The notes beneath the pieces are model-generated. The model saw nothing but the letters and a program-made list of their open reading frames with translations. It was not told where the DNA came from and made no database searches. From the NCBI GenBank assembly GCA_025351325.1, contig JANXWE010000326.1, positions 1-34,439 of the forward strand: a DNA stretch of 34,439 bases. The letters run 5' to 3'. The translations under genes were made by a program, and so were the position numbers. The stretch is from Fimbriiglobus sp. (GTDB lineage: Bacteria; Planctomycetota; Planctomycetia; Gemmatales; Gemmataceae). Below, one piece after another: positions 1-17,968 of this stretch; position 1 is the first letter of the stretch, and each line of letters starts with the position of its first letter.

Positions 1-1225
1 CCGAGGTGCCGCCCGCCGTCGGGTTCAGTCCTTTGACGGGCTGCAGTTTCTTGATCTGGGCGTCCAACCTTTTCTCGCGGTCCGCCATCAACCCGTCGAA
101 CCAAACCCCGTAGTCCCTGGCTCGGTCCCCCCACGTCTGCAAGCCGTTCAGCCCGTCCTTGAAGACTTCGCCGCCGACGTTGAAGGTGTCCTTGCCGAAG
201 CTCCGCATGTCGGCGGCGGCTTCTTTGATTCCCGGTATCTGCATGGACTCCGGGAGTTTGTCCGCGAGTGCCAGCAAGTCGCCGAGCTTTTCGACCAAGA
301 TGCCGAAGATGCCGATCCACCCGGCGACGGCGATTTTGACGACGCTCGTCGCGGCTGCCCAGGCGTCCGCCAAGTAGCCGACGCCCACGACGACGTTGCG
401 CATGACGCCCAAAACGGGCGGGGCGAACCCTTGGACCGCCCCCTTGCACGCTTCGACGGCAGCCGGAATCCGGTCCGCCAAAAACTCGCCCACGGGTGCC
501 AGCGCGATAATCAGTTGATCCGCCGCCTTGCCGAGAACGGCTTGGGCTTTGGTGATCGATTCGTGGGCGAGCTTGGCGTTCGCCATTTCAGCCGTGGTGA
601 TGGCGAACCCGGCGGCTTGGGCTTTGAGTTCCGACGTGGACTTGCCCAAAACCGAAATCAAGTTTTTACCCGTGTCTTCACCCACCGCTTTGAGCAAGAG
701 GTTGACGCGGGTCGCCGGATTTTCGACTTTGTTCAAGGCTTCAAAAAGCCCGTAAAATTGCTCTTCGACGTTGAGTTGTGAAAAGGCTTGCGCGTCGACG
801 CCCAATTTTTGGAAAATCGCTTGGGTTTCTTCGCCCTTGCCACTGGCGGCGTCCATCGCTTTTCCGCTCAGCGTCGCCAAGCCTTCGGTAAAATCTCGAA
901 CGTCCGACCCCGCCGATTTGGCGACTCCGGCGATGCCCGTGAACCCTTCGACGGTGACGCCGAACGCGCTTGCGATGTCGCCCTGTTTGGAGATGTCCTT
1001 CAACCGGTCGAAGGGTTCGGAAATGAGTCCGCCCAGTGCGCCGACACCTTTCGCGGCGACACCGGCGAAGCCCCCGACGACGGCGCCCTTGAGTCCCGAT
1101 TTCAAAGTCGACCCGACGCGCGAACCCCAGCCCTTCACGGCGCCCTCGGTTTTGCCCAGGGTGTTCGTGAGTTGCGAGTCGTTCGCGGTCAGTTGGAGTG
1201 ATGCCGTGCCGAGACTGTTGCCCAT
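1..1225 (-). CDS. Phage tail tape measure protein, 3' end missing
   Basis: The frame is open from the ATG at 1225 to the window edge, giving the first 408 residues. Small repetitive Gly/Ala-rich segments lie near residues 35-70, followed by long helical stretches. A Val/Ala/Ile-rich hydrophobic stretch lies around residues 280-320. This fits the N-terminal part of tape measure proteins, which set siphophage tail length and are usually 600-1500 aa, so more than half is probably beyond the window. It follows the G/GT chaperone genes, exactly where a tape measure gene sits. The start codon is 4 bases after a TAAATA-type box and 3 bases beyond the stop codon of the T frame. No strong ribosome binding site is seen. 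Confidence 0.85.
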   Translation of the reverse strand, partial: MGNSLGTASLQLTANDSQLTNTLGKTEGAVKGWGSRVGSTLKSGLKGAVVGGFAGVAAKGVGALGGLISEPFDRLKDISKQGDIASAFGVTVEGFTGIAGVAKSAGSDVRDFTEGLATLSGKAMDAASGKGEETQAIFQKLGVDAQAFSQLNVEEQFYGLFEALNKVENPATRVNLLLKAVGEDTGKNLISVLGKSTSELKAQAAGFAITTAEMANAKLAHESITKAQAVLGKAADQLIIALAPVGEFLADRIPAAVEACKGAVQGFAPPVLGVMRNVVVGVGYLADAWAAATSVVKIAVAGWIGIFGILVEKLGDLLALADKLPESMQIPGIKEAAADMRSFGKDTFNVGGEVFKDGLNGLQTWGDRARDYGVWFDGLMADREKRLDAQIKKLQPVKGLNPTAGGTS

Positions 1226-1228
1226 ACC

Positions 1229-1540
1229 TTATTTACCATGGAACAGGTCAGAAAAAGCCCGGCTTCCTTCGGCGTAATCCATCGGCTTTTCCGGCTCCCA
1301 TTTGGGCACGAAGTCGGCGAAGTTCAGCGTGTTTTTGCTGAAGCAAGAAGCCGTCGTGTGGGCGACGATGGCGGTGCGGATGTCGGCGGGCAAGCAGCCC
1401 CACGGCTCGATTGAGTAGTAGGCTTGGTAGTCGGTCAGTTCTCGGGCGGAGAGTTGTTCTTGGAGGGTCGAAACCGGCACGCCCCAAGCCAGGGAGAGGC
1501 GAAAGAGCATGAGGCGTGCCGGGTCGTTTTTCAGTTCGCT
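1229..1540 (-). CDS. Tail assembly chaperone T region, made as GT frameshift fusion
   Basis: This frame has no ribosome binding site or convincing start of its own. It is entered from the upstream G frame by a -1 slip at the A-run 1540-1547. The resulting fusion is about 203 aa: 100 codons of G plus 103 of T. The T region contains a segment reading LSLAWGVPVSTLQEQLSA and a Trp-rich region typical of siphophage T-type chaperone domains (DUF4035-like). In lambda-like phages the GT form bridges the tape measure protein and the tail tube. The tape measure gene follows 3 bases after the stop, as in lambda and HK97. Family assignment of the T part is by motif style and position. Confidence 0.75.
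   Translation of the reverse strand, partial: SELKNDPARLMLFRLSLAWGVPVSTLQEQLSARELTDYQAYYSIEPWGCLPADIRTAIVAHTTASCFSKNTLNFADFVPKWEPEKPMDYAEGSRAFSDLFHGK
1230..1236 (-). promoter_or_regulatory. CTANATA-like box before tape measure gene (GTAAATA)
   Basis: On the minus strand this reads GTAAATA followed by AGGT and the ATG. It deviates from the CTANATA consensus at the first base and overlaps the stop codon of the upstream T frame, so it is the weakest member of the set. Confidence 0.35.
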
Positions 1541-1546
1541 TTTTTT
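1474..1546 (-). promoter_or_regulatory. Programmed -1 ribosomal frameshift signal (G/GT)
   Basis: The zero frame reads GAA AAA AAA GCG, giving the slippery heptamer A AAA AAA at 1546-1540. After a -1 slip the next codon is AGC and the T frame is open. Seventeen bases downstream lies a perfect 10-bp inverted repeat, CCGGCACGCC (minus strand 1522-1513) with GGCGTGCCGG (1483-1474), enclosing a 29-base loop. A stem-loop of this kind can stimulate slippage. The zero frame ends at the TGA at 1533-1531. The layout matches the known lambda G/GT mechanism. Confidence 0.85.
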
Positions 1547-1839
1547 TCGTCCGCGTCCCCCATGCCGTTGACCCTGAGGCACACGGGTAGCAACTTCGCC
1601 GCGATCTGGGGCGGGATTTCCATCGCCTCTTGAATCGTATTGAAGATCGCCTTGCCGTCCTTGTCCCTGCAGCTCAATGCCAGCAGCTCGAAGTCCGCCA
1701 TCCACGCTTCGTTCGATTTGCGGAGTTCTTCCATCCCGGACAGGAGCTTGGCGTACTGTCCGGCGGTGAGCGGGTGGACGAAAAGAGTTTGCGATTCGAC
1801 TTCGACGATTTCGAAGGCGGGTTTGCAGAAGTTAAGCAA
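1531..1839 (-). CDS. Tail assembly chaperone G protein
   Basis: A 102-aa protein beginning MLNFCKPAFEIVEVES and lying directly downstream of the tail tube gene, with an 8-base overlap (1832-1839). Its position, size, acidic/helical character and A-rich 3' end with a -1 slippery site identify it as the G member of the lambda-type G/GT tail chaperone pair. These proteins coat the tape measure protein during tail assembly and are absent from the virion. It ends two codons after the slippery run. The assignment rests mainly on synteny and the frameshift signal. Confidence 0.8.
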   Translation of the reverse strand: MLNFCKPAFEIVEVESQTLFVHPLTAGQYAKLLSGMEELRKSNEAWMADFELLALSCRDKDGKAIFNTIQEAMEIPPQIAAKLLPVCLRVNGMGDADEKKAN

Positions 1840-2257
1840 TTGCCACCGCCCCGCTGAGCTGGAGGTCGAACTTCAATTTGACGATTTCGTCGGGCTTGAA
1901 ATCGACCGGATCGACCTTGCTGATGAAGCCCACGAAGGTGTGGGTGGGCGGCGTATCGACACCGATGCCGTCCTCGTCCGGTGCCGTGATCTTCCACGTC
2001 TTGGCGACGCCGATCAAAGTTTCGACCAACGCCCGCGTCGCCTTCGAATAGTTGCACTCGATGGACACAGTCGCCGGATCTTTTAGACCTGGGGAGTAGG
2101 TCCGCACGCCGTTGACGACGCCCAAGTGGGTCGTTTCGATTTTGCTGACTTCCTGCCCCGGAGCTTGGATCATGACCGTCTCCGAGATCGCCGTATACGT
2201 CGTCGCGGGGACGCCGCTGTATTCCAATTTCGTCGTCCAACCGATGATGCCGCCCAT
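1832..2257 (-). CDS. Major tail tube protein
   Basis: A 141-aa protein starting MGGIIGWTTKLEYSG. It contains a segment reading SIECNYSKATRALVETLIG followed by beta-rich sequence, with a central TFVGFISKVD strand. This resembles the lambda gpV/phage tail tube fold. Its place between the gp10-like completion protein and the G/GT chaperones is the standard position for the tube subunit. The ribosome binding site AGCGAGG lies a few bases before the ATG. The leader is 31 bases long, measured from the CTAAATA box at 2289-2295. The protein forms the hexameric rings of the tail tube. Confidence 0.82.
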   Translation of the reverse strand: MGGIIGWTTKLEYSGVPATTYTAISETVMIQAPGQEVSKIETTHLGVVNGVRTYSPGLKDPATVSIECNYSKATRALVETLIGVAKTWKITAPDEDGIGVDTPPTHTFVGFISKVDPVDFKPDEIVKLKFDLQLSGAVAIA

Positions 2258-2288
2258 GTCTACCTCGCTTTGTCGATGTCTGTGTCCC

Positions 2289-2295
2289 TATTTAG
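2289..2295 (-). promoter_or_regulatory. CTAAATA box upstream of tail tube gene
   Basis: On the minus strand the site reads CCCCTAAATAGGG. It overlaps the stop codon of the gp10-like gene and lies 31 bases before the tail tube ATG. It is a candidate phage late promoter element. Confidence 0.55.
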
Positions 2296-2741
2296 GGGAG
2301 GATCAGCGAGATTTGTTTCCTCAATTCACTGCTCAAAATCGATTGATAAATGCCCTTGGTGGAGTTGAGCGTGGGTCGCAACCACGGGTGAGCCTTCATC
2401 TTCTTGGTGCCGTATTCGAGCTGCGCGGCGTACCGCGTCGGGCTGAACGGCTTCCGGGGCTTCGGCTTGCGTCCCCGGTTGGATTTCCTCGGCTTGGGCG
2501 GCTTCTTTTTGGCTCTGGACGGACCGACAATCGCCGCCCAAGTCTGCGTGGCGGCGTAGTATTTGGACTTGATTTTTATACTTTTCGCCAACGCCCCGGA
2601 TGCCTTCGGTGCCGCCGACTGCAGGGTTTGCTTGACCGGCGAAGCGGCTTTGTTGATCGACTTTCTGATGGCGATGTTCATCTTGCCGCCGCGTAGATAC
2701 TTGATGCCCGTGAGGCTTAGGGTCACGTCCCCGCCGATCAC
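2292..2741 (-). CDS. HK97 gp10-like head-tail/tail completion protein
   Basis: About 149 aa from a GTG at 2741, which overlaps the stop of the 33-aa gene as GTGA and is preceded by AAGGGGG. A second in-frame GTG at 2726 is the alternative start. The N-terminus contains TLSLTGIKYLRGG and the C-terminal half AQLEYGTKKMKAHPWLRPTL. The pattern YG-T-K-HPWLRPAL is a hallmark of the HK97 gp10/DUF646 family, which acts at the head-tail or tail-terminator interface. A Lys/Pro/Arg-rich insertion (KKKPPKPRKSNRGRKPKPRK, about residues 75-95) is unusual and may contact DNA or the acidic tail partner. The longer open frame upstream is out of context and was not used. Confidence 0.8.
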   Translation of the reverse strand: MIGGDVTLSLTGIKYLRGGKMNIAIRKSINKAASPVKQTLQSAAPKASGALAKSIKIKSKYYAATQTWAAIVGPSRAKKKPPKPRKSNRGRKPKPRKPFSPTRYAAQLEYGTKKMKAHPWLRPTLNSTKGIYQSILSSELRKQISLILP

Positions 2742-2839
2742 TCGTCCCCCTTGCGGATCAATTCCAAAATCAACCTGACGAGTTCGGGATGGTCCTTCGC
2801 AAACTTCAAAAGTTCCAGCAGTAGTTTTCCGTCGAACAT
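2738..2839 (-). CDS. 33-aa small phage protein between head closure and gp10-like genes
   Basis: A small open frame starting MFDGKLLLELLK and ending with a helix rich in Leu, Ile and Glu. The ATG follows the head closure stop by two bases, and the TGA overlaps the GTG start of the gp10-like gene, so it fills an otherwise empty 100-base gap and looks translationally coupled on both sides. It is an amphipathic helix without a recognisable family. Coding status is supported by its tight packing rather than by homology. Confidence 0.55.
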   Translation of the reverse strand: MFDGKLLLELLKFAKDHPELVRLILELIRKGDE

Positions 2840-2841
2840 GT

Positions 2842-3171
2842 TCAAATCTCCAGTGCGTCGTAGGCGTGGCAATCGCAAATCCACTCGTCGTCGCCGGGTC
2901 GGATGGTTTCGATGATGTAAATTTGCCCGTCCCCGTCTCGGAAGCGATCCAGTGCCGTGAGGGCTGGGAAATTGCGGACGCGGATCGTGGCTTGAACGCC
3001 CGTTTGCTCCGCGCCGTAGTCTTCCTGCCTTCGCCCGCTTTCGATTTCGATGCGCGTCCAGAGCGACGCCCCGTCCGCGAACGTCTCGACCTCTTGACCG
3101 TTGTCGGCGGACTTGACGCGGGTGCAAACGAGCCGCACCACGGCATCGGAGTAGGTTCCCGCGTTCGGCAT
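2842..3171 (-). CDS. Head-tail adaptor/head closure protein
   Basis: A 109-aa protein from the ATG at 3171, with a GGGGGTGA ribosome binding site. A TTG one codon upstream also fits. The sequence ALTALDRFRDGDGQIYIIE and the C-terminal WICDCHAYDAL resemble the SPP1 gp16/HK97 gp7-type head closure family, small beta-barrel proteins with a characteristic region reading D-R-V-x-x-x-G-x-x-Y-x-I. Position between the gp6-like connector and gp10-like genes supports this. It would close the portal channel and dock the tail. Confidence 0.75.
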   Translation of the reverse strand: MPNAGTYSDAVVRLVCTRVKSADNGQEVETFADGASLWTRIEIESGRRQEDYGAEQTGVQATIRVRNFPALTALDRFRDGDGQIYIIETIRPGDDEWICDCHAYDALEI

Positions 3172-3246
3172 CAAATCACCCCCAATTTATCAGCATCACA
3201 TCGGGTGAATCCCGACGCATTCAACAACCATCACAACAAAAATTGT

Positions 3247-3567
3247 TCACGAAGCCCCCGGCGAGACATATTTGGTGCTGTACCTTCGACAAATGCTGAC
3301 GAACCCGAACGGCATTTCTTCGATGGTCTGTTCGCCGTAAGCTTCGCGGACGCGGTAGTAATGACCCGCCAAGAGCTTGACGGCGAGTCTTATTGAAGCC
3401 GGGATACCGCCCGGAAATCCGGTCGTGACGTTGGCGTCCAATGTTCTCAGCGTGAGAGCTTTGAAGGCGTCTTCCGACGCGTCGACGAACTCTTGGAGCA
3501 AGGCGTCTTCGGCGGTCGTGTTGATCCGCAGGTGCAATTTCAGTTCACTTGTTGTTACGGTGCTCAT
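3247..3567 (-). CDS. Head-tail connector protein, HK97 gp6-like
   Basis: A 106-aa protein whose N-terminus, TTSELKLHLRINTTAEDALLQ, has the form typical of the gp6/DNA-packaging connector family (VTLEELKxHLRI..EDxLL). This is followed by a helix and AVKLLAGHYYRVREA. Dodecamers of this family sit under the portal. It is the first gene after the capsid terminator and begins 7 bases downstream of a CTAAATA box. It is separated from the next gene by about 75 non-coding bases. Lengths and motifs fit the family well. Confidence 0.85.
   Translation of the reverse strand: MSTVTTSELKLHLRINTTAEDALLQEFVDASEDAFKALTLRTLDANVTTGFPGGIPASIRLAVKLLAGHYYRVREAYGEQTIEEMPFGFVSICRRYSTKYVSPGAS
3444..3458. repeat. Copy of palindrome TTCTCAGCGTGAGAG inside gp6-like gene
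   Basis: This 15-base site matches the perfect palindrome at 9391-9405 except for the first base. It lies in coding sequence, where it encodes a Leu-Thr-Leu-Arg stretch, so chance is a real possibility for this copy. Confidence 0.35.
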
Positions 3568-3574
3568 ATACCGT

Positions 3575-3581
3575 TATTTAG
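3575..3581 (-). promoter_or_regulatory. CTAAATA box upstream of connector gene
   Basis: The minus strand reads GACGGCTAAATAACGG and is followed by the ATG after 7 bases. It lies just beyond the capsid terminator, so the connector-tail genes have both an upstream stop and a fresh promoter-like element. The five bases before the box (GACGG) are identical to those at the portal box. Confidence 0.6.
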
Positions 3582-3594
3582 CCGTCATCCGACG

Positions 3595-3624
3595 AAAAAA
3601 CCCCGTCGATTTCTCTCCGGGGTT
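3595..3624 (-). terminator. Rho-independent terminator after capsid gene
   Basis: In minus-strand orientation the RNA has a stem AACCCCG/CGGGGTT (3624-3618 with 3605-3599) and a 12-base loop. The T-run through 3595 follows. It lies 19 bases after the capsid stop codon, so highly expressed capsid mRNA can end before the connector genes. Confidence 0.8.
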
Positions 3625-3642
3625 CTTTCGATTTCTTTTCGT

Positions 3643-4902
3643 TTACACAGCCGGTGCCGCCAAAGTTTTGACGGCGCTCGGGTTGAGCAATCGACCGTCC
3701 AAGCGACTGAACGCCATGAACACCACCATGCCTTCCCTTGCCCGAATCTCATCCAAGCGGAGGAATTGCACGTCCGAGACGCGCCGCAGCAAGTAGCGGG
3801 AAAAGTCCCCGTAGCAGGCGATTTTCGCGTTGACGCCGGTGCTTGGCACGTCGGCGTTGACGAAAATATTTTCGCCGTCGAGGGTTCCCGGTCCGGCTTG
3901 GAACGGGTCGGCGAAATAGCGGTTGGAGCTGTCCTTCGCCTTGCGGATCTGAGCCAAAAATTTGTCGTGGAACATGAACCCGCGCTTCGCCGCCGGTGCG
4001 TTGCGGTACGCCGGATCGACCGAGTATTTGAGGTCCAACAGGTGATCGATGGTGACGGTCGGAACGGCACCGGAACCCGTGGATACGATTGTTGAAGCGG
4101 CGGCGTCCAACAGGATGCCCCTCGGCTTCGCGGTGCCGTCGCCGTTCGTCACCGCCGCATTTTGCAGGCGTCCGATGCGTTCACCCAAGAGCATCGGCAG
4201 AAGCAGTTCCAGTGCCGTTTGCGAATCCTGAAGCATTTCAACGCTAACGGAAACTTCGTCGCTCGACGCCTTCCAGGCTTTCAATACGACGCCGCTTGTC
4301 ACCGGGTCGGTACTCGTCGCCGCAGTGGTTTCGCCCAGCCAGCGACCCGTGTTGTTCGTGTCGTCGAAGACGGGAATGGGCATGTCGACGCCGGTGTCGG
4401 TGGCGAACTCGGTCACGGCGTTGACGGCGGAACCGTAGTATTTCAAGTAGCGCTCGAAGCCGTCGAAGAACTCGCGCCACGCGACGAGATCGGTGTTGCC
4501 CGTCTTCGTCAGGGCGCGGATGGTGGCTTTGTTGCTGCCGAGGTTGATGTCGCTTCTGGCGGCGTTGTCGATGGCGTCCAGGCTCGGCTTGTATCTGTCG
4601 CTGCCCATCAAGAACCAGTTCCGCATCGCATCGCCGACGCTCGCCTTGGTGCTCGGCATCGCGTTGGGGCTCGTCTTGCGGACGGCTTGGCGGAGTTCGC
4701 CTTCCGCCCGCTCCAGCTTGCTGGTCTTTTCGAGGGTGTTGATTCTTTCGCCCAGCTTGTCGAAGTCGGCGTAGATCGAATCGACCTTGTTGGATTCTTC
4801 GGCGGTGAGATCGCGGGTTTCGTCCTTCGCCTTGGCGATGACACCCTTGGCTTCACTCAAAATCTTGGCTCGCGATTCTTTCAACTCGTTAATTTGACTC
4901 AT
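3643..4902 (-). CDS. Major capsid protein, HK97 family
   Basis: A 419-aa protein with a Lys/Glu-rich coiled-coil delta domain over about residues 1-75. A proline- and Ser-containing junction around 75-100 is likely cut by the adjacent protease. A typical HK97 capsid core follows, including WLGETTAAT, a central helix with SVEMLQDS, LLGERIGRLQNAAVTNGDGTAKPRG in shortened form (the family signature N-G-G/D-G-x-x-x-PxG), and the C-terminal region FLRLDEIRAREG. The AAGGAG ribosome binding site sits 5 bases before the ATG. The 5' end overlaps the protease gene by 14 bases. It has its own CTAAATA box and its own terminator, so it can be expressed apart from its neighbours. Confidence 0.95.
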   Translation of the reverse strand: MSQINELKESRAKILSEAKGVIAKAKDETRDLTAEESNKVDSIYADFDKLGERINTLEKTSKLERAEGELRQAVRKTSPNAMPSTKASVGDAMRNWFLMGSDRYKPSLDAIDNAARSDINLGSNKATIRALTKTGNTDLVAWREFFDGFERYLKYYGSAVNAVTEFATDTGVDMPIPVFDDTNNTGRWLGETTAATSTDPVTSGVVLKAWKASSDEVSVSVEMLQDSQTALELLLPMLLGERIGRLQNAAVTNGDGTAKPRGILLDAAASTIVSTGSGAVPTVTIDHLLDLKYSVDPAYRNAPAAKRGFMFHDKFLAQIRKAKDSSNRYFADPFQAGPGTLDGENIFVNADVPSTGVNAKIACYGDFSRYLLRRVSDVQFLRLDEIRAREGMVVFMAFSRLDGRLLNPSAVKTLAAPAV

Positions 4903-5494
4903 ACTTCTCCTTGTTGGTATTCGTATTTAGTGCGCTGCGGATCATAAATTCCACCGCCGCGACCGACGGCGAAGAATTAAAGTTTTTGCGCCCGTCGGGC
5001 GGCTCGATCTTGCTCCGCAATTCGGCGTACGCGTTCGGGTAAGCCGGACGGGTCACGACCGCGATGTGGCTGAGGTCGAGGTCGTGGAGGGTGCGGTAGT
5101 TGACGTTGTTCTTCTGGGTCCAACTGTCTTTCTCGTTGTGGAACTGAAAGCTCATGCCGTTCACGTCGCCGCGACTGACGGCTTCCTTGATGTCGCTTGC
5201 CCAAGATGGCAAATCGAGTGCGAAGCGGAGTCCCACGGCGTCGCTCCAGAGTTTCAGGGTTCCGGCGGCGGTCCGTCCCAGCGGCGGGCGCGCGTCCTCG
5301 TTGTGGGTCCAGTGTGCCGTGATGTCGGGGTTGGCTTGTAGGGTGCGGTCGAATGCTTTCGCGGCAATGACTTCCACGAATTTCCTGCCGCGTTCGCTGA
5401 GAACATGCGACGGCGAGTCGTACAATGCGGCGTAGCCGGTGAGCGTGTTGCCCTCGTTCGTGATCTTGCTGTTGATGCTGCGAATTTCCATCAT
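4889..5494 (-). CDS. HK97-family prohead protease (S78)
   Basis: A protein of about 201 aa from the ATG at 5494, which overlaps the portal stop as ATGA and has an AGGAGG site 4 bases upstream. It carries family signatures: the N-terminal beta strand with GYAALYDSPSHV, the catalytic His segment HWTHNEDARPPLGRT, and the catalytic Ser segment NGMSFQFHNEKDSW. It also has DLSHIAVVTRPAYPNA near the end. The enzyme matures the procapsid by removing the delta domain of the capsid protein and then itself. A longer start upstream at 5527 lies inside the portal frame and is not preferred. Confidence 0.93.
   Translation of the reverse strand: MMEIRSINSKITNEGNTLTGYAALYDSPSHVLSERGRKFVEVIAAKAFDRTLQANPDITAHWTHNEDARPPLGRTAAGTLKLWSDAVGLRFALDLPSWASDIKEAVSRGDVNGMSFQFHNEKDSWTQKNNVNYRTLHDLDLSHIAVVTRPAYPNAYAELRSKIEPPDGRKNFNSSPSVAAVEFMIRSALNTNTNKEKYESN
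4924..4930 (-). promoter_or_regulatory. CTAAATA box upstream of capsid gene
   Basis: The minus strand reads GCACTAAATACGAATACC, 21 bases before the capsid ATG, leaving room for a short leader with the AAGGAG site. It lies inside the 3' part of the protease gene. Confidence 0.55.
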
Positions 5495-6633
5495 GCACCC
5501 TCCTTTATCCTGGGCAAATTGAGCCACTTCCTAACTTCGTCTTTTGAGTACCAACCTTTATCGACGCCGATTGCCCACACGTCGTGCTGAGTCTTCGTGT
5601 CCATCTGGATGATTGCTTCGCGGACGAATTCGGCGTAGATGCGCCCTTTATCCGCCGGTGAAATCACCTTGCGCGAAATCTCGCACTCCAGCTTTCTCAA
5701 CCAAGGGTTCAGGCTGAATTGGAGGAAGTTTCGGGTCTGGGCTTCGGCGTTGTTCCACGTCGCGCGCCCGTATTCAAAAACGAAGATCGGATCGACCCCG
5801 ACCCAGCGGCAGATTTCGTAAATTTGGTGCTGTCGAGATTGGACGAATTGACCCGATTCGTTGGACAATTCAAACGGTTGGAAGTCCAGCCCCTCTTCGA
5901 GGACGGGAATTTTGAAAGCGTTGTCGACGCCGCCGTATGTCGTGACCCAACCGGATCGGATGTTCTCGCGGGCGGTGTCGCTCAGGGCACCCGTCGCCCG
6001 GATGACGCCGCCTACTAGGCAGGAATTGCCGAAGTAGGAACTGCCGAAGCGATCCAGTGCCAAACTCAACCCGAACGATTCTCTGGCGGTTTGCACCAGT
6101 CGATAGCCTTGGGTGCCGTCCGGGCTCGGACCGCGGATCGTGAGGACTTCGCTGCCGGCTAGGACGATGGTGCCGCTCTTGGTGTTGATTTCGTAGACGA
6201 GCTGTCCGCTTTCATTCCGCCCCGGCGTCACGACGTTGGGCGGGATGGGATAAAGGTGCGTGACTCTTCCCGCGCCGTCCCGCACAATCTCCGCGTAGGC
6301 GTTGCCGTACAGGACCGCCCACCACATCATTTGAGTGAGGAAATCGACCGTGCTTTGTTCGGGGTTCGGCTCGTCGTGGAGCAGCGCCCAATAGTCGGTG
6401 TTTCTGGCTTCGATTCTGCCGTCTGTCGTGTTTTCGTAGACCTTCAGTGGCATCGTGCCGATGGCTTCGCTGACGACCCTGGCGGCTCTCCAGAGTGTGC
6501 TGAGGGCGAGTGCGGACGACTCGTTGACGGCGACGCCGGACAAGACGGGTGCCGCGAACAAGCCGTCGAAGCTCGTCGCCGTGATGTCTCTGGTTTTCGG
6601 CTTTTTGGCGAACAGCCGCTGGATGAAATTCAT
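5491..6633 (-). CDS. Portal protein, HK97 family
   Basis: A 380-aa protein with the HK97 portal signatures: VNESSALALSTLWRAARVVSEAIG near residues 36-60, ALLHDEPNPEQ, the stretch TQMMWWAVLYGNAYAEIVRD, and a C-terminal region with DPIFVFEYGRATWNNAEAQ and FLQFSLNPWLRKLE. Twelve copies form the ring through which TerL pumps DNA. The start ATG is 6 bases after a CTAAATA box, and no classical Shine-Dalgarno sequence is visible except AGGG within the box. It is followed by the protease with an ATGA overlap. Confidence 0.94.
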   Translation of the reverse strand: MNFIQRLFAKKPKTRDITATSFDGLFAAPVLSGVAVNESSALALSTLWRAARVVSEAIGTMPLKVYENTTDGRIEARNTDYWALLHDEPNPEQSTVDFLTQMMWWAVLYGNAYAEIVRDGAGRVTHLYPIPPNVVTPGRNESGQLVYEINTKSGTIVLAGSEVLTIRGPSPDGTQGYRLVQTARESFGLSLALDRFGSSYFGNSCLVGGVIRATGALSDTARENIRSGWVTTYGGVDNAFKIPVLEEGLDFQPFELSNESGQFVQSRQHQIYEICRWVGVDPIFVFEYGRATWNNAEAQTRNFLQFSLNPWLRKLECEISRKVISPADKGRIYAEFVREAIIQMDTKTQHDVWAIGVDKGWYSKDEVRKWLNLPRIKEGA

Positions 6634-6639
6634 ATGCCC

Positions 6640-6646
6640 TATTTAG
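6640..6646 (-). promoter_or_regulatory. CTAAATA box upstream of portal gene
   Basis: The minus strand reads GACGGCTAAATAGGGCAT and then ATG. It shares the preceding GACGG with the connector-gene box. If used as a -10 element, transcription would start at or next to the ATG, giving a leaderless message. Confidence 0.55.
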
Positions 6647-6649
6647 CCG

Positions 6650-8221
6650 TCACACGGAAAATATTCTCCGCCCCTCATAGACGCTCGGTTTGGCTTTGCC
6701 CTGAAGGTGGATGGCTTGACTTAATGCCATCAATGTTGCAATGAGGTTGTCCTTTTTGTTTTCGGGGCGGTTCGTGATTGGCTTGACGTATCCCTTGCCG
6801 TCTCTTTCCAAATACGTGTGCCCGATCTGCCACCTCATCAGGGCGTTGCCGTCGTGCTTCAACTGCTTGTTGTTGACGAGCTTTTCGAGTTCGATACATG
6901 ATGCGTTGAAGTAGCTGTTCGTTTGCGGGAAGTTGTAAACGTCCAAGCCTTGCTTCGCGCAATGGTTGGCGAGCGACAAGCTCTGCCAACGGTCGAAGAC
7001 CACATTTTTCACGGTGTAAATCTTTCGCAGCTCGTCGAAAAACGCGATGATCGTTTCGAGGTCCGTCGCGGTGCCGGGGGTGATCGTGAGTGATCCCTCT
7101 TTGGCGAAGGCGCGATAGATCGCCGTATTCGTGCCGTCCCTGGTTTTCAACGCGCCTTCGGGCACCCAGCCCCACGATTTGATGGCGAATTGGTTGTTGG
7201 GCAGCGGGAACACGGCGGAGATCGCCGTCAGGTCTCTCACCGCCCCGACGTCGCACGCCAAGACGCAATCCCGTCCATCGAGCGGCGGCAGTGCGGCTCG
7301 GCACGCATCCCAATCGTCGACGTTGATCCAGACATTTTCAGTGTCCTTGTTCTGGTTGAACTTCAAGACCGCGAAGGCGTGCCGAGTCGTGGCTTCGCGC
7401 TTCTCACGGTTCCACTGGTTTTTGAAGTCTTCGACACTCTGGCAAATTCCGATGCTCGGATTCGCCTTGATCCATGATGCCTCAACGTCCTCTTCGCCCT
7501 CTGGGACTTCAAAGATCCAAGGTTGAAAGGTCGTGTCGATGATCTCGCCCGACAGGACCTTGCGTGAATAATCCACCAACTTATAAAAAACGCCGTTTTT
7601 TGAAAATCCGGCGGTACTGGTGATGATCTGCAAACCTTGCCTTGCGTCGGTGCTGTTTTTCAAGATCGTGTAGAGGTCGTCCTTGGAGTGAAAGGCGAGC
7701 TCGTCGTGGCACAGGAATGTGAATCCGTGCCCGAAATTGCCGCCCTTGGTATCGCTGGCAAGGCTTCTGTATCTGCCGTTTTTAGCCGGGTATAAAATCG
7801 TCTTTTTGCTGGCGACGACGTGGAGGGCTTTGCTCAACTTCGCATTATTTTCGATGGAGAATTTGAACCAGTCGAAAATCTGAGCCGCCTGTTCTTTGTT
7901 GACGGCGCAACTCGCACACGCCGGACTTTGAACGCCGTCGGCGATCAGATGGTAAGCGGTCAAGCCGTAAGTGAGGCACGACTTAGCGTTTTTGCGACCG
8001 CATGTCAGCAAGCCGATTTTGGTTCGTCGCTGTCCGGTTGGCGTGATCCAGCAATACCAACTGCGGATAACGTCACGCATCCAAGGCAAGAGTACGAAAG
8101 GTCGACCGTCTTCGAGAAGCAAGTAAGTTTCAATAAAAGAAATGACTTTTTGACCGGCGGCTTCGTCCCACGTTCCGCCGTCGGCTAGGAATTGCTCGTC
8201 ACTTTTGGATCGTATTAACAC
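6650..8221 (-). CDS. Terminase large subunit
   Basis: A 523-aa packaging motor ATPase/nuclease. The Walker A-like motif is GRKNAKSCL near residue 75 (the family usually has GRKNGKS, so one Gly is Ala). A Walker B-like FLCHDELAFH lies near residue 170, and STAGFSKNG follows as coupling motif. The C-terminal RNase H-like nuclease has ACDVGAVRDLTAIS and VFDRWQS. The N-terminal region with FVLLPWMRDVIRSWY matches terminase_1-type large subunits. The GTG start (8221) is 4 bases past a CTAGATA box and lacks a ribosome binding site. The preceding HNH gene ends 15 bases upstream of the start, an arrangement typical of HNH-dependent packaging in HK97-like phages. Confidence 0.95.
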   Translation of the reverse strand: MLIRSKSDEQFLADGGTWDEAAGQKVISFIETYLLLEDGRPFVLLPWMRDVIRSWYCWITPTGQRRTKIGLLTCGRKNAKSCLTYGLTAYHLIADGVQSPACASCAVNKEQAAQIFDWFKFSIENNAKLSKALHVVASKKTILYPAKNGRYRSLASDTKGGNFGHGFTFLCHDELAFHSKDDLYTILKNSTDARQGLQIITSTAGFSKNGVFYKLVDYSRKVLSGEIIDTTFQPWIFEVPEGEEDVEASWIKANPSIGICQSVEDFKNQWNREKREATTRHAFAVLKFNQNKDTENVWINVDDWDACRAALPPLDGRDCVLACDVGAVRDLTAISAVFPLPNNQFAIKSWGWVPEGALKTRDGTNTAIYRAFAKEGSLTITPGTATDLETIIAFFDELRKIYTVKNVVFDRWQSLSLANHCAKQGLDVYNFPQTNSYFNASCIELEKLVNNKQLKHDGNALMRWQIGHTYLERDGKGYVKPITNRPENKKDNLIATLMALSQAIHLQGKAKPSVYEGRRIFSV

Positions 8222-8225
8222 ACAC

Positions 8226-8232
8226 TATCTAG
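8226..8232 (-). promoter_or_regulatory. CTAGATA box upstream of terL
   Basis: The minus strand reads GAGTGCTAGATAGTGT and then the GTG start. It is immediately preceded by a copy of the CTCTCA palindrome. Confidence 0.5.
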
Positions 8233-8247
8233 CACTCAGCCTGAGAG
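8233..8247. repeat. Diverged copy of the CTCTCA-TGAGAG palindrome before terL
   Basis: The plus strand reads CACTCAGCCTGAGAG, 13 of 15 bases matching the perfect copy at 9391-9405. As there, it adjoins a CTANATA box directly, which suggests a combined control site. Confidence 0.45.
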
Positions 8248-8511
8248 TTTCTTCGGGTGGACGTGGTGATCGTGGCAGTGGGAACACACGGAAAGGTAGT
8301 GTTCGATTTCAACCGCCGGATAAATTAAATGATGTGCTTCGGAAGCCCAGCCCGTGCAGCCTTCGCCTTCGACCTCACAAAGCGGCTGGGCTTCCAGCTT
8401 CATTCGCCGTAGGCGTTGATGCCTTGCTCCGTAATGCTCTCGGTTGGGTCGTCGGGTACTCTCAGGCTTGTGGAGCTTCAGTCGGGGTGCCTGTGGCGGG
8501 TAATCACTCAT
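8236..8511 (-). CDS. HNH endonuclease of the packaging module
   Basis: A 91-aa protein with paired zinc-binding cysteines (CEVEGEGC and CSHC) and the HNH core EAHHLIYPAVEIEHYLSVCS followed by HDHH. It is basic at the N-terminus. Small HNH proteins encoded beside terminase genes are required with TerL for cos or headful cleavage in HK97-like phages, and that is the likely role here. The ATG overlaps the TerS stop as ATGA, and the gene ends 15 bases before TerL. Confidence 0.9.
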   Translation of the reverse strand: MSDYPPQAPRLKLHKPESTRRPNREHYGARHQRLRRMKLEAQPLCEVEGEGCTGWASEAHHLIYPAVEIEHYLSVCSHCHDHHVHPKKLSG

Positions 8512-8879
8512 AGATCGATCTCGGTGAAGTCCGCGAAGCGATTTTCCTTCACGTTCGGCTTTTCGGATGGGATCAAGCGGAAGAATTTACAAGAGGTGAC
8601 GAACGCCTTGTGGAGATCGAGGTAGGCTCTTGTTGTTGGGGCTTCCCGCATCTCGCAGAGTCTGCCCCACAGGTCGCAGTGAATCGAAAAGCTCTCGGAT
8701 GTTTCGCGCGTGAGAAGTTGATTTGATTGAAGCTGCTGACAGTGTGTTGACCAATAGGCTTTCGCCTCAGCCTTCAACCAAAGCGGCGGCGTGAGGTCGT
8801 CTATCGCGTTGGATCGCAGTTTCAGTTTTGGCTGCGGACCTCTTGTTCCGATGTTGACTCCTTGGAGTTTGAAACCCAA
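8508..8879 (-). CDS. Terminase small subunit, P27 family
   Basis: Up to 123 aa. The segment GTRGPQPKLKL corresponds to the G-x-R-G-P-x-P N-terminus of P27-type small terminases. A helical region, LWLKAEAKAYWSTHCQQL, and a C-terminal part with FRLIPSEKPNV follow. The protein recognises phage DNA for packaging. The only canonical start is a TTG at 8879 without a ribosome binding site. The family N-terminus instead begins at ATC 8852, which is preceded by AAGGAG at 5-base spacing, so initiation at ATC is possible. The gene is followed by HNH with a 4-base overlap. Confidence 0.85.
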   Translation of the reverse strand: MGFKLQGVNIGTRGPQPKLKLRSNAIDDLTPPLWLKAEAKAYWSTHCQQLQSNQLLTRETSESFSIHCDLWGRLCEMREAPTTRAYLDLHKAFVTSCKFFRLIPSEKPNVKENRFADFTEIDL

Positions 8880-8987
8880 TAGTTAATTCGACGCTTGAGC
8901 CGAGTAGGTCTAACCACCGTCCGAATAAAGTTATTGGGTCGGTGCGGCTGGGCGGCGGGGGGGGCTTTATTTGTTCCGCCAACTTTT

Positions 8988-8994
8988 TATATAG
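8988..8994 (-). promoter_or_regulatory. CTATATA box upstream of terS
   Basis: The minus strand reads GGCACTATATAAAAAG in the 125-base gap between the DUF3168 gene and terS. The leader to the terS start would be 108-136 bases. This gap also holds a run of eight G and a short open frame of uncertain value. Confidence 0.4.
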
Positions 8995-9004
8995 TGCCGA
9001 CGGG

Positions 9005-9379
9005 TCAATTATCGCCCCAGATCGTGAACGATTGTTTGGTGTGGAACCCCTCCACGATTTCTTCGGTGGATTGCCCGGTTAGGAAGCTGCCCTGGATGCC
9101 CGCACTTCGGTAGCCGTGCAGCGCCGCCCGCACCGCCGCCTGAACCGCCGCCTGAACCGCCACAGTGGTCGCGTAGCTGTCGACCTCCAGCGTGTACTTG
9201 GTGAGTGAGCTGACGCCCTGCGTGGTGAGCTGAGGCTCGGTGTCCGTGATTCGGTAGACTGCGAAAGGGAGTGCCGGCAGATTCTCGGCGGGGATCGTCG
9301 GGTAGATGCGGCTCCCGACGGCGCTCGTCAGGGCGGTCGTGGATGTCAGGCGACTGTAGATGGTGTTCTCGATGGGCAT
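9005..9379 (-). CDS. Tail completion/terminator protein, DUF3168 (gp17-like)
   Basis: A 124-aa protein beginning MPIENTIYSRLTSTTALT, with GSRIYPTIPAENLPALPFAVY and the later YTLEVDSYATTVAVQAAV. This is the typical DUF3168 layout (a small domain of tail terminator proteins, like HK97/SPP1 gp17). It normally sits between gp10 and the tail tube gene. Here it stands alone ahead of the packaging genes, about 6.5 kb from its usual site. It begins 4 bases after a CTAAATA box and without a clear ribosome binding site. Confidence 0.85.
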   Translation of the reverse strand: MPIENTIYSRLTSTTALTSAVGSRIYPTIPAENLPALPFAVYRITDTEPQLTTQGVSSLTKYTLEVDSYATTVAVQAAVQAAVRAALHGYRSAGIQGSFLTGQSTEEIVEGFHTKQSFTIWGDN

Positions 9380-9383
9380 GTCT

Positions 9384-9390
9384 TATTTAG
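9384..9390 (-). promoter_or_regulatory. CTAAATA box upstream of DUF3168 gene
   Basis: The minus strand reads GAGAGCTAAATAAGAC and then ATG. It directly adjoins the perfect palindrome at 9391-9405, in the divergent promoter region shared with the sigma factor gene. Confidence 0.6.
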
Positions 9391-9405
9391 CTCTCAGCGT
9401 GAGAG
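9391..9405. repeat. Perfect 15-base palindrome CTCTCAGCGTGAGAG, operator-like
   Basis: The arms CTCTCA and TGAGAG are exact inverted copies around GCG. It sits between the divergent DUF3168 and sigma genes. Related copies occur at 13142-13155, 8233-8247 and 3444-3458. It is a candidate operator for a phage regulator. Confidence 0.55.
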
Positions 9406-9434
9406 ATTTCGATTTTGCACCGCCAATATTTTGA

Positions 9435-9441
9435 CTATATA
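9435..9441 (+). promoter_or_regulatory. CTATATA box upstream of phage sigma gene
   Basis: The plus strand reads TTTTGACTATATAGATG, 26 bases before the sigma ATG. The element matches the CTANATA pattern and also reads CTATATA on the other strand. TTGACT just upstream is not at -35 spacing. Confidence 0.5.
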
Positions 9442-9467
9442 GATGTATCGCAAACCGAGGGGGGAAT

Positions 9468-9848
9468 ATGTATGTTAAGAATACAGAGTTGAGCACGTTG
9501 ATCGCGGAGTGGCACGACACCAGCTTGATGCCGGTGCGGCTGATCGAAGTGGTGGGGAGTATCGCCAGGGGTTGCCGCAACAGATATTGCCGACAGCTGG
9601 ACCCCGACGACGCCGTCCAGTGCGCATTGTTGAAGATCTTCCAAAAAAAGCACAAGTTCGACCCGCATCGAGGTTGTTTTAATTATATGACGACGATTAT
9701 AATCAATGAATTTAGACAGTCGGCTTACAAAAATCGCAGGTGGGCGAGTTCATGCGAGTGGAGTGACGGACTCCAGAATGGATGCAGCAAGGAATCGGCT
9801 AGGGCGGTGACCGAGGACCGGTTTATTCGCGCCGGATACGACCAGTGA
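9468..9848 (+). CDS. Small sigma-70 region 2 protein, T4 gp55-like late sigma factor
   Basis: A 126-aa protein with one recognisable domain, a sigma region 2 core over about residues 25-90. It contains LDPDDAVQCALLKIFQKK and KFDPHRGCFNYMTTIIINEF, followed by a basic RQSAYKNRR segment. There is no region 4, as in T4 gp55, which likewise couples a minimal region 2 to late promoters of the form TATAAATA. The strong ribosome binding site GAGGGGGG lies 3 bases before the ATG. It is the only + strand gene in this block, faces away from the late genes, and ends at a shared terminator with the Prim-Pol gene. The gp55-like label is by motif resemblance, not by alignment. Confidence 0.7.
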   Translation: MYVKNTELSTLIAEWHDTSLMPVRLIEVVGSIARGCRNRYCRQLDPDDAVQCALLKIFQKKHKFDPHRGCFNYMTTIIINEFRQSAYKNRRWASSCEWSDGLQNGCSKESARAVTEDRFIRAGYDQ

Positions 9849-9864
9849 TACTGAGCCGAGCCGC

Positions 9865-9899
9865 GCCGGGACAGGTAAAATCAGTTTACCTGTCCCGGC
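9865..9899. terminator. Bidirectional terminator hairpin between sigma and Prim-Pol genes
   Basis: A perfect 15-bp inverted repeat, GCCGGGACAGGTAAA/TTTACCTGTCCCGGC, has a 5-base loop (9880-9884). It lies between two convergent genes, 16 bases after the sigma stop and 11 before the Prim-Pol stop. The run of A/T at the loop side gives little U-tract, so strength is uncertain. Confidence 0.75.
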
Positions 9900-9910
9900 T
9901 CTACAGCGTA

Positions 9911-12139
9911 TCACTTCAGCGCCAGCCCTTTGTAGACCCGGATGCCGCACACTTTTCCGTCCGAAAGGTGCGGCACTTGGGTTCGTAAATCTCTGGCGAA
10001 CCAAACATTGGTTGACGCTTCATTTTCCACATCGTCGCACCATCCGCAGTACGAAGCGTACGCGGCGTCACGGGCGACAGTCCCCTTGAAGTCGATGTCG
10101 CAGCAGGCGTCCAACCAAGCCGCCACGGGCGACGTTTCGCACTGGTATTTCAGTTCGATCTTTTTCGATGCCTTCCCGACGGTGAACTTGCCCTTGTTCG
10201 CCCTCAGCCGCTTCAACCCGTCAATCCCCCAATTGGCGATGCCCGGTAGCTCGGCAACCAATTTGCCTTCGAGGTCGGTATCTTCTTTCCCGAAGAACGA
10301 CACGTCGAACGGCAGCCACAGCAAGCGGTTTGCCATCGCGCCGCTTGCGTCCATGAACCTCGGCAAGCCGTTTGCCGCCACCACGAAGCGGGTCGGCAAG
10401 CGGCAACTGATCGCGTCGAGATACTTCCTCTCGACTTTCTGAACGTCTTCGCCGATGATTGATTTCCACCTCTCCAAAATGCGCTTGGCGTCTCTGGCGT
10501 TGATCTCCACTTCGCCGACGAGTGCAACCGACTTGTTGACCAAACCCGCCATGCCAAAATCCGTGGTGAGCGAATCGAGGTTGTAGCCGGTGCTGTTGTC
10601 CTTGCCCGCGAGCTCCCCGATGAGGCGTTGGATGGTGCCCTTGCCGCTTCTCGGTTTGCCGACCAGCATCAACGCCTTCTGCAAGGACGTGTCGGCGGTC
10701 AGGCAGTACCCGACGTACTCTTGCAGGGTGGCGATTCGCTCGCCGTCGCCCTGGAATACTTCTGCCAAAAACTTCGACCACAGCGGGCACTCCGCCGCCG
10801 GGTCGAAGCCGAACGGCAGACACGACACCGAACACCAGCTTGGCGAGTGCGGTATCAGCCCGCCGCCGATGTTGGCGGTGTCGAGCAGCCCGTTCCGGTA
10901 GGCGATGACGTGCTTGGCATCCTTGAAAGGCGGTTTGTCGCCAGCCCAAAAGGGCATGTCGCCCACGGCGTCACTGTCCTTCCAACAATACGATTGGAAA
11001 ATCGGGGTGACGTTTTCGACCACCGAGTTGGATTGCGGTACACCCGACTTGGTGAAGTGTTCCCGCAATCGCATTTTTATCTCCCGGCACGGGACGTACC
11101 TGCACTCTTGGTAGAAGTAGGTTTGCCCGCCGGTGAACAACGGGTACCGCCGCCGCTCGCACGCCGCCTTGAAGAAACGTTGGGCTAGGCGGTCGTACTG
11201 CCCCGCCTTCTTCGCGTCGTCGTCGCCCCCGGCGGAGATCGGGACGGGCGGCTTGGCAACATCGCCGGCGAACTCGACACCTAGAGCCGCTTCGAGTTGA
11301 GCAGTCGGGTCTACCTTCAGTTTGTACCCGGCGGTGCCGCCTTTCGGCTCAGTCCCACTGGCGTTTTCCAGCTTGTGGACGAGCTGGGCTTCAGTCCACG
11401 GGCAGTGGGCACCTCCGCTGTCACACTGGGAATCCTTCTCACCCCACTCCTGAAAGACGGGCAGGGCTTCGTCTGGCGTGAGGGCGAAGCCGTGGATCAC
11501 GTCGCAGGCGATTGCGAAGCACCTGTTATCGGCACCGCGCCCCTGCGTGGTGCCCGGTCGGGTCGAAAGGTATTCGCGGGCTTGATGCTGACGCGAATCC
11601 AGTTCGATGCCATCGACGGCGGCGCACGTTTCCGGGGTGATCCTCGTTTTGCTTTCTTTCACGTCGGGCACCAACCAAGTCGGATCGTAGGTGGGCATTT
11701 TCGCCCACTGGTCCCACCCTTCGGCGGAGTAGACCGCGCCGGACGAATGCACCGAACCGGGTCCGACCACATACCCGCCGTCGCCCCGGAGATCGACGCC
11801 GGAGACGCCGCCGTTCACCGTGCTGTTCTGCCAGTTGGGGATGATATCCCCGCTTCGGGGGTGGCGGTAGTAGAAGTGGTAGCCCTTCGAGCTCCGCACC
11901 CGAACCGGCGTCGGCAAGTGCTTCTCGACATACCCCACGGCATCGGCGCTGTCGGCGTCCACCACCACCACCCCGGAATAACTCCCGGTGATAACGGCGT
12001 AGTTGTAGTGGGCTTGGTGCCCCGGTGCTTTGGGGTGATCGGCGTTGCCCCACTTCGCCAACTCCCCGGTGGGCATGATCGCTGATTGCAGGCACTTCCA
12101 CTTCACCAGAGGCTTCTTGTTGTAGCCGAGAGGCACCAC
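9911..12139 (-). CDS. Bifunctional primase-polymerase / SF3 (D5-like) helicase
   Basis: At least 742 aa. The N-terminal Prim-Pol domain has the catalytic set VVVVDADSAD (D61, D63), KGYHFYYRHP (H88) and GVDLRGDGGY (D116). The C-terminal phage/plasmid P4-type helicase has the P-loop LVGKPRSGKGTIQ around residues 490-505, an acidic Walker B-like VGEVEI, and the B'/C region AANGLPRFMDASGAMANR. It would prime and unwind phage DNA. The first canonical start is GTG 12139, but family sequence (ILTHAIPLAKRHGLSV) continues to at least 12184. No ATG, GTG or TTG exists in that frame back to a stop near 12300. An ATT at 12274 after GGAAAGGA is a possible start. Confidence 0.93.
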   Translation of the reverse strand: MVPLGYNKKPLVKWKCLQSAIMPTGELAKWGNADHPKAPGHQAHYNYAVITGSYSGVVVVDADSADAVGYVEKHLPTPVRVRSSKGYHFYYRHPRSGDIIPNWQNSTVNGGVSGVDLRGDGGYVVGPGSVHSSGAVYSAEGWDQWAKMPTYDPTWLVPDVKESKTRITPETCAAVDGIELDSRQHQAREYLSTRPGTTQGRGADNRCFAIACDVIHGFALTPDEALPVFQEWGEKDSQCDSGGAHCPWTEAQLVHKLENASGTEPKGGTAGYKLKVDPTAQLEAALGVEFAGDVAKPPVPISAGGDDDAKKAGQYDRLAQRFFKAACERRRYPLFTGGQTYFYQECRYVPCREIKMRLREHFTKSGVPQSNSVVENVTPIFQSYCWKDSDAVGDMPFWAGDKPPFKDAKHVIAYRNGLLDTANIGGGLIPHSPSWCSVSCLPFGFDPAAECPLWSKFLAEVFQGDGERIATLQEYVGYCLTADTSLQKALMLVGKPRSGKGTIQRLIGELAGKDNSTGYNLDSLTTDFGMAGLVNKSVALVGEVEINARDAKRILERWKSIIGEDVQKVERKYLDAISCRLPTRFVVAANGLPRFMDASGAMANRLLWLPFDVSFFGKEDTDLEGKLVAELPGIANWGIDGLKRLRANKGKFTVGKASKKIELKYQCETSPVAAWLDACCDIDFKGTVARDAAYASYCGWCDDVENEASTNVWFARDLRTQVPHLSDGKVCGIRVYKGLALK

Positions 12140-12325
12140 CGACAGCCCGTGTCGTTTCGCAAGTGGTATCGCGTGGGTGAGGATGGGGGATTGGTGTTGC
12201 GCCGACGTATCGACGCCGTAGTGATCCTCGTTCTCGTCTTGCGAAACATTCTCAACCCGCCTATAAATACTAATAGCTGTCCTTTCCGACCCGCGTCAAT
12301 CGGGTCGATGTAAAAAGTCTCCCGA

Positions 12326-12367
12326 AATAGAGCCGCAAAAATAAAACAATTATTTTGCGGCTCTATT
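12326..12367. terminator. Long hairpin terminator after HTH gene
   Basis: Inverted repeat AATAGAGCCGCAAAA/TTTTGCGGCTCTATT, extended to about 18 bp with one bulge, with a short AT-rich loop. It lies 23 bases after the stop of the HTH gene and upstream of the Prim-Pol gene, on the minus strand. AT-rich flanks make it usable in either direction. Confidence 0.7.
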
Positions 12368-12389
12368 TTCGTTTTCAATTCAATTCAAT

Positions 12390-12620
12390 TCAGAGCGACA
12401 ATTTCGCGATGGCTTTTTCAATCGCCTCCACCTGCGCCTGCGGCTCGGCTAGCAAGAGCCGCAGTATCGCCCCGACCTGACACCGCGTGTACACGTCTCG
12501 TTTTTCACCGATCTTGATCGCCTCTATATGCGGCATGCGGGTGCGGACTTGGTAGCGCACCCGCTGAGCGATCCAGCCGATTTCGGACGCGATATCGCCG
12601 ATTGAGTAGAGTTTTTCCAT
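12390..12620 (-). CDS. Small HTH DNA-binding protein (MerR/excisionase-like)
   Basis: A 76-aa protein from the ATG at 12620. A longer in-frame extension is not favoured because GGGGATCGGAC gives a start here. The N-terminal LYSIGDIASEIGWIAQRVRYQVR is a MerR/excisionase-type helix-turn-helix with a following wing, IEAIKIGEKRDVYTRC. The C-terminal third is a helix. In this place (near the integrase, divergent from the HNH gene) it may be an excisionase or a lysis-lysogeny regulator, and it is the only visible candidate to bind the CTCTCA palindromes. Function is inferred. Confidence 0.7.
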   Translation of the reverse strand: MEKLYSIGDIASEIGWIAQRVRYQVRTRMPHIEAIKIGEKRDVYTRCQVGAILRLLLAEPQAQVEAIEKAIAKLSL

Positions 12621-12724
12621 GTCCGATCCCCTTTTTTCCGCCCGATTTTCGGGCACAATAGCTCTAAGCCGTTTTTTGTCGCCCCGCAACAATTTTCCGA
12701 AGCGATTTTTCACACCGATCAAAC

Positions 12725-12734
12725 TATCTAGATA
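12725..12734. promoter_or_regulatory. Palindromic TATCTAGATA box between HTH and HNH genes
   Basis: TATCTAGATA is its own reverse complement, so CTAGATA is present on both strands (plus 12728-12734, minus 12731-12725). It could serve the HNH gene to the right (34 bases to the ATT) and the HTH gene to the left (104 bases to its ATG). Confidence 0.45.
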
Positions 12735-12768
12735 TGTCGGTTCAAATTCACACGATAAGGGGGACAAA

Positions 12769-13056
12769 ATTAACTACAGGGAGTATTTGCAGTCGGACCA
12801 CTGGCAACACACGTCTTTTTTGAAAAAAATGCACGCCGACTTTCGGTGCGAAGACTGCGACATCAACGACGTGCCGCTCGAAGCCCACCACAAGCACTAC
12901 GGGAGCCTGGGACGCGAAAAGATGTCGGATCTAGCCTGTCTATGCCGTGGGTGTCACCAATCGCGCCACGACGCAATTGACGCACAGAAACGGGATGCGC
13001 ACATCACCATCAAGTCCGATGAAGTTATCCGGCAGTGGGCACGGACAGGCGAATAG
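12769..13056 (+). CDS. HNH endonuclease, early region
   Basis: About 95 aa. A conserved YLQSDHW start leads into the treble-clef HNH motif: CEDCDINDVPLEAHHKHYGS, then ACLCRGCHQSRHD. Paired CxxC and CxxCH zinc ligands surround the His-Asn/His core. The domain begins right after an ATT codon at 12769, which has AAGGGGG at 12757-12763. No ATG, GTG or TTG lies in frame between there and an ATG at 12619. That upstream ATG would force overlap with the divergent HTH gene start and the control region. The ATT start is therefore proposed, with the longer form as alternative. Role in the phage is not known. Confidence 0.75.
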   Translation: MNYREYLQSDHWQHTSFLKKMHADFRCEDCDINDVPLEAHHKHYGSLGREKMSDLACLCRGCHQSRHDAIDAQKRDAHITIKSDEVIRQWARTGE

Positions 13057-14664: not shown

Positions 14665-14695
14665 GCCAGGAGTCTCCCTGGCAATGCGAAGTTTT

Positions 14696-14726
14696 GGTGC
14701 CCCTCGGTGCCCTTTCTGGTGCCCCT
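14696..14726 (+). repeat. GGTGCCC repeats, putative arm sites of prophage integrase
   Basis: Three copies of GGTGCCC(C)T begin at 14696, 14706 and 14718, roughly one helical turn apart. They lie between the integrase start and the tRNA-Leu gene. Similar short direct repeats flank attachment sites bound by integrase N-terminal domains. Confidence 0.45.
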
Positions 14727-14780
14727 GAGAGTGCCTACTAGGCTGGCGAACTGAGGAAAATGCCATAAGTTAGCAGCGTT

Positions 14781-17837: not shown

Positions 17838-17968
17838 TTCGCTCCCCCCTTCTTGCTCGGCGTACGGTCTAATGTCTGTTAGAAGCTTTTGCGGCGTGCT
17901 CAAGTGATAGTCCTCCAAAAGACCGGTGGAGTTATCCGCAGGTCTTTTCGTTTTGTGCGGGGAATGGC

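Follow-up and report, generated by a model that had tools for sequence, protein, structure and literature searches.

Late transcription in bacteriophage T4 relies on gp55, a small sigma factor with region 2 and without region 4, and on a -10-like box that precedes the late structural genes. The T4 late promoter, TATAAATA, spans positions -13 to -6, and promoters of this type consist of a TATA box ending at -6 with no other conserved element. For Aeromonas phage Aeh1, the predicted late promoter is CTAAATA, which begins at -12 and is presumably read by a divergent gp55 (PMC1524935). A different precedent is found among cellular leaderless genes, where a TA-like -10 signal lies about 10-12 bp before the start codon (PMC3160421).

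The window analysed here, a stretch of 34,439 bases from a member of the Gemmataceae, carries a prophage that can be compared with each of these systems. As in T4, a small sigma with region 2 and without region 4 is found together with a -10-like box before late structural genes, and this box would occupy -12 to -6, as in the T4-type late promoter. The prophage differs in being a temperate, siphophage-type element of Gemmataceae, in the leaderless spacing of many genes and in the distant sequence similarity of its sigma to gp55; its family also adds to the box a conserved A/T tract at -30 to -26. The core box is identical to that of Aeh1, whereas its fourth position is free here (CTANATA), and neither the leaderless arrangement nor the A/T tract is described for Aeh1 in the available text of PMC1524935. 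With cellular leaderless genes the prophages share a promoter so near the start codon that the leader would be lost, although there the signal is a housekeeping-type TANNNT (PMC3160421) and here it is a box specific to the phage and restricted to the late genes of prophages. We consider it probable, at roughly three chances in four, that temperate siphophage-type prophages of this kind possess a gp55-like late transcription system with leaderless late genes, a reading that draws on sequence comparison throughout.

The late module lies on the minus strand (1-9379) and runs from a tape-measure gene, cut by the contig end, through the genes for the major tail protein, neck, head-tail adaptor Ad1, capsid, protease, portal, large terminase (TerL), HNH and small terminase (TerS) to the tail terminator. 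The window holds 11 copies of CTANATA where 1.34 are expected, and none of 100 dinucleotide shuffles gave more than 5; an earlier note on this DNA had pointed out that a 7-mer with five fixed A/T bases should be rare in a GC-rich sequence. Every copy falls within 2289-12734, the first 12.7 kb. All the boxes listed in that note are present at the coordinates it gave. On the minus strand, CTAAATA precedes the genes for the major tail protein (2289-2295, spacing 31 nt, leadered class), Ad1 (3575-3581, 7 nt before ATG), the major capsid protein (4924-4930, spacing 21 nt, with an AAGGAG Shine-Dalgarno sequence), the portal (6640-6646, 6 nt before ATG) and the tail terminator (9384-9390, 4 nt before ATG). 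CTAGATA lies 4 nt before the GTG of the TerL gene (8226-8232), and CTATATA (8988-8994) is separated by 108 nt from the annotated TTG of terS. The distances thus run from 4 to 31 nt with a longer leader at terS, as had been noted, and the weaker member GTAAATA (1230-1236) is likewise present, 4 nt before the ATG of the tape-measure gene (start 1225). Each of these structural boxes has an A/T tract upstream, which for the seven CTANATA members stands at the same 13-bp offset: at 2309-2313, 3595-3599 (a T tract), 4944-4948, 6660-6664 (portal), 9404-9408, 8246-8250, 9008-9012 and, for the GTAAATA member, 1250-1255.

Two additional matches on the minus strand, at 9436 and 12725, arise because CTATATAG and TATCTAGATA are palindromic; the pairs 9435/9436 and 12725/12728 are palindromic or nearly so and are counted on both strands. 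The plus-strand boxes that the earlier note placed before the sigma and HNH genes do exist, but their role as promoters is doubtful, since both lack the A/T tract that all minus-strand structural boxes have. The palindromic CTATATAG (9435-9442), whose plus copy lies 26 nt before the sigma start, has a tract on neither strand, and the plus-strand CTAGATA at 12728-12734 falls within the longest HNH open reading frame (12619-13056). The minus-strand CTAGATA at 12725-12731 does have a tract and is followed after about 105 nt by a small ORF on the same strand (about 12390-12620).

The frequency of the motif in the host, which the earlier note had raised as a check, proved low: the whole 5.09-Mb genome holds 138 CTANATA, about 1 per 37 kb, against 11 in the window. 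Tract and box together occur 10 times in the same genome, 5 of them inside the window's prophage. Across the 95 genomes of the family, CTANATA with an ATG 4 or 5 nt behind it showed no excess over the reversed pattern, and where genomes harbour box-bearing prophages, many CTANATA-4/5-ATG sites fall within those prophages. A host-wide role of the box was rejected, as the box is not in excess before the start codons of host genomes.

The candidate reader is a 126-aa protein encoded on the plus strand (9468-9848), which was compared by Pfam, PHROG, profile and structure searches. It matches Pfam Sigma70_r2 with an E value of 1.2e-5, and region 4 was unmatched in the Pfam and PHROG scans, which bears out the claim that the prophage encodes a minimal region 2 sigma. 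Its PHROG matches are weak and fall on sigma families, including 'late sigma transcription factor'; for two sigma relatives (L007 and L152) the late-sigma family, PHROG 234, is the sole PHROG match. When a profile of four sigma sequences was compared with the PDB, T4 gp55 (7d7c) was the first natural protein (E 0.0058), below two designed proteins; with an alignment of eight rows, which was too divergent for pattern scanning, gp55 tied with ECF sigmas. The AlphaFold2 model (mean pLDDT 81) has the region-2 fold that the earlier note anticipated. In the structure comparison sigmaE scores best (Z 10.9) and gp55 reaches Z 9.4 over 115 of 126 residues at 3.9 Å, most of the matches being to region 2 of sigma factors at large; Foldseek gave no match at E 0.001 or better. 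No C-terminal sliding-clamp-binding motif is evident by eye, in a C-terminus that the model gives with low confidence. The scan for gp45 and gp33, which covered a subset of the ORFs of a prophage cut by the contig end, recognised neither. Searches for the sigma with single proteins or small alignments gave no hit in viral or genome contigs, tblastn against named phages gave no match, and a phylum-wide search returned weak hits only.

On these comparisons the 126-aa protein is best described as gp55-like, short of a proven gp55 orthologue: T4 gp55 ranks with the nearest proteins of solved structure, but as a distant homologue. The earlier note had inferred T4-like late transcription of separate origin. 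The first part is largely supported by the boxes before late genes, the region-2 sigma and the likeness to gp55 and to TATA-type promoters. The second is not supported: since the sigma matches both the PHROG late-sigma family and T4 gp55 in the PDB, distant common descent with gp55 is at least as likely as a separate origin.

Relatives of the sigma are present in other genomes of the same bacterial family, and around them CTANATA again clusters on one strand (late-strand/opposite-strand boxes: G034, 5/0; G023a, 8/0; G010, 8/0; G023b, 5/0; G021, 4/1). The genes behind the boxes in these sigma-bearing relatives are once more those for portal, capsid, tail terminator, terminase, adaptor and major tail protein. 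A search with the window's large terminase, followed by retrieval of the surrounding regions, yielded nine more box-bearing prophages in which a sigma was undetected, and nine further regions (153 kb) with three boxes in total and no gp55-like gene. The comparison set covers about 25 related prophages and viral contigs of Gemmataceae. Over all related elements, 142 boxes lie on the late strand and 20 on the opposite one: 45 and 5 in seven sigma-bearing elements, 70 and 15 in the nine without a detected sigma, and 27 and 0 in seven viral contigs related via TerL or portal (L152-L157 and L067). In L152, as in the window, the gp55-like gene is opposite in strand to the late genes.

These relatives also supply the case for the foremost alternative, in which the late promoters marked by the boxes are served by a host sigma or some other phage factor and the gp55-like protein does something different. 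In the nine box-bearing prophages, no sigma was found by profile search, by profile-profile comparison of conserved ORFs or by Pfam. In four of them the gene immediately preceding the tail terminator encodes a protein of 210-211 aa with multiple helix-turn-helix matches (for example L085:4176-4808 and L082:4085-4714), which would be a candidate for such a factor. At element level the association of sigma and box is weak (boxes in 8 of 9 sigma-bearing elements and in 10 of 18 others, p 0.19, not significant), and one prophage-like region with a gp55-like gene (G051; L031/L032, C1 ~6.41 Mb) has zero CTANATA; there, a crude 7-mer count gave no alternative repeated motif. Against a host or other factor stand the lack of box excess before host start codons, the correspondence of the box to a gp55-type late promoter as given for Aeh1 (PMC1524935), and the position of the sigma gene, which in several elements is within or next to the late module. 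In G011, pursuit of a box cluster led to a previously unseen, very divergent sigma. Furthermore, the two closest sigmas, those of G010 and G023a (69% identical), go with a common promoter type, tract-less and mostly CTACATA. We therefore regard a host or other phage factor as an unlikely reader overall, and the gp55-like sigma as probably reading the box in those members that carry it. In the nine prophages without a detected sigma, the box may be read by a sigma beyond detection, by way of a helper phage, or by another factor.

The distance from box to start codon is bimodal, at 4-5 nt or mostly at 19-38 nt. In 17 elements, 50 of 117 boxes are followed after 4 or 5 nt by the start of an ORF of at least 80 aa, compared with 2.5% of random positions, and this spacing before such ORFs was seen at 49 late-strand boxes and at none on the opposite strand. 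Single-base variants of the box at the same spacing vary chiefly in the first position (A in 7, G in 6), the other positions being nearly fixed. None of 54 short-spaced starts has a Shine-Dalgarno sequence, compared with 22 of 32 long-spaced ones (Fisher p 4e-13, a value that overstates independence, the elements being related). The spacing follows the gene: it is short for portal (16/16), tail terminator (12/12) and Ad1 (10/10), and long for capsid (12/14) and major tail protein (10/10), with a Fisher p of 8e-15 that shared ancestry of the elements likewise inflates.

Because the predicted Aeh1 box begins at -12 and the T4 promoter spans -13 to -6, transcription would begin at the sixth base after the box, and the short-spaced genes would therefore be leaderless. 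The long-spaced class, where the start codon imposes no A, is consistent with this position: among 32 cases, A occupies the sixth base in 18 and C the fifth in 16. By this reckoning, portal, adaptor and tail terminator would be translated from mRNAs without a leader, whereas most mRNAs for capsid and major tail protein would have one. The leaderless spacing, the dependence of leader class on the gene and the tract at -30 to -26 go beyond the earlier note, and we found no paper on leaderless gp55-type late genes in the open-access literature.

In 141 aligned boxes, A/T at offsets -18 to -14 from the box C, equivalent to -30 to -26, is the only other strong positional signal. With a tract defined as at least four of these five positions being A/T, it accompanies 101 of 125 boxes at 13 bp upstream once one high-GC lineage (G023a and G010, 0/16) is set apart. 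In five sigma-bearing elements, the window included, 21 of 29 boxes have it against 4.1 at other offsets; the corresponding figures are 23 of 26 against 1.8 in viral contigs, and 57 of 70 against 15.3 where a sigma was not found. Opposite-strand boxes have it in 5 of 20 cases. Such a tract could be contacted by the C-terminal domain of the polymerase alpha subunit or by another factor.

Spacing and tract bear on two readings in which the boxes are not promoters. Repressor operators can be one-directional, as are the stoperators of mycobacteriophage L5, and the boxes are indeed asymmetric, on the same strand, intergenic and close to gene starts. An operator role is nevertheless very improbable given the fixed 4-5-nt spacing to start codons, the restriction of Shine-Dalgarno sequences to the long-spaced class, the CA at the predicted start site, the tract at a fixed distance, and the identity of the box to the predicted Aeh1 late promoter. 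A signal for translation initiation in the mRNA would suit the very tight spacing at about half of the sites; it is still less credible, as the remaining boxes are mostly 19-38 nt from a start that has a Shine-Dalgarno sequence of its own, and the tract stands further upstream at a fixed distance from the box. That the boxes reflect chance or composition has a negligible probability, for although several relatives are AT-richer with high shuffle expectations (L076 and L077), the enrichment also holds in elements of 57-70% GC and is joined by strand bias, spacing and positional conservation.

The gp55-like late transcription system that we favour would operate as follows. The boxes would serve as -10-type elements of promoters that belong to the prophage itself and are taken as late from the content of their genes, with CTANATA at -12 to -6, transcription starting six bases after the box at an A that is usually preceded by C in the leadered class, and the tract at -30 to -26 acting as a second promoter element in most relatives. 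Bound to the core RNA polymerase of the host, the gp55-like sigma would open the DNA at the box with no need of a -35 element, and every late gene or small operon would be served by a promoter of its own. Start codons 4-5 nt from the box would give leaderless mRNAs for portal, adaptor and tail terminator, and in the window also for TerL and tape measure, while the capsid and major tail protein genes would usually keep a 19-38-nt spacing with a Shine-Dalgarno sequence. A fuller version, which we put forward tentatively and at rather less than even odds, is a bipartite promoter (tract at -30 to -26 and CTANATA at -12 to -6, no -35) read by a region-2-only sigma together with a tract-contacting factor, in which leaderless or leadered placement would set virion protein copy number.

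If correct, this model would mean that gp55-type late transcription reaches beyond the large lytic T4-like phages and also operates in small temperate prophages of Gemmataceae, in a setting without an evident clamp partner. It would also offer a case in which promoter position alone decides between leaderless and leadered translation. Low-copy virion proteins would come from leaderless mRNAs and the two most abundant proteins usually from leadered ones, which makes a link between leader type and stoichiometry directly testable. In practical terms, tract, box and spacing together provide a sequence handle for locating late genes and their start codons when such viruses are annotated, one that has already led to the divergent sigma of G011.

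Several observations concern the surroundings of the module. In four of the related regions (L081, L082, L083 and L085, about 17-19 kb), glycosyltransferase family 25 and family 2-like genes lie behind the tail genes. Among the contigs of the window's own genome with several boxes, checked for the missing part of the prophage, the 5.7-kb C196 is the sole candidate: it has a CTAAATA 4 nt before the gene for a 69-aa apparent membrane protein (L160:1175-1395) and is possibly part of the prophage's missing end, though PHROGs give no support. Within the window, an ordinary ECF-type sigma with regions 2 and 4 is encoded at 23857-24438, outside the prophage late module. The prophage further encodes a primase-polymerase/helicase (9911-12139, minus strand) and a tyrosine integrase (13630-14766, minus strand), the latter adjoining a leucine-tRNA-like sequence (about 14788-14866). 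A partial copy of this sequence lies 9 kb away (23674-23743), and the two copies enclose a second element (15375-23616) with its own primase/helicase and integrase, so that the two elements are apparently tandem integrations at one attachment site.
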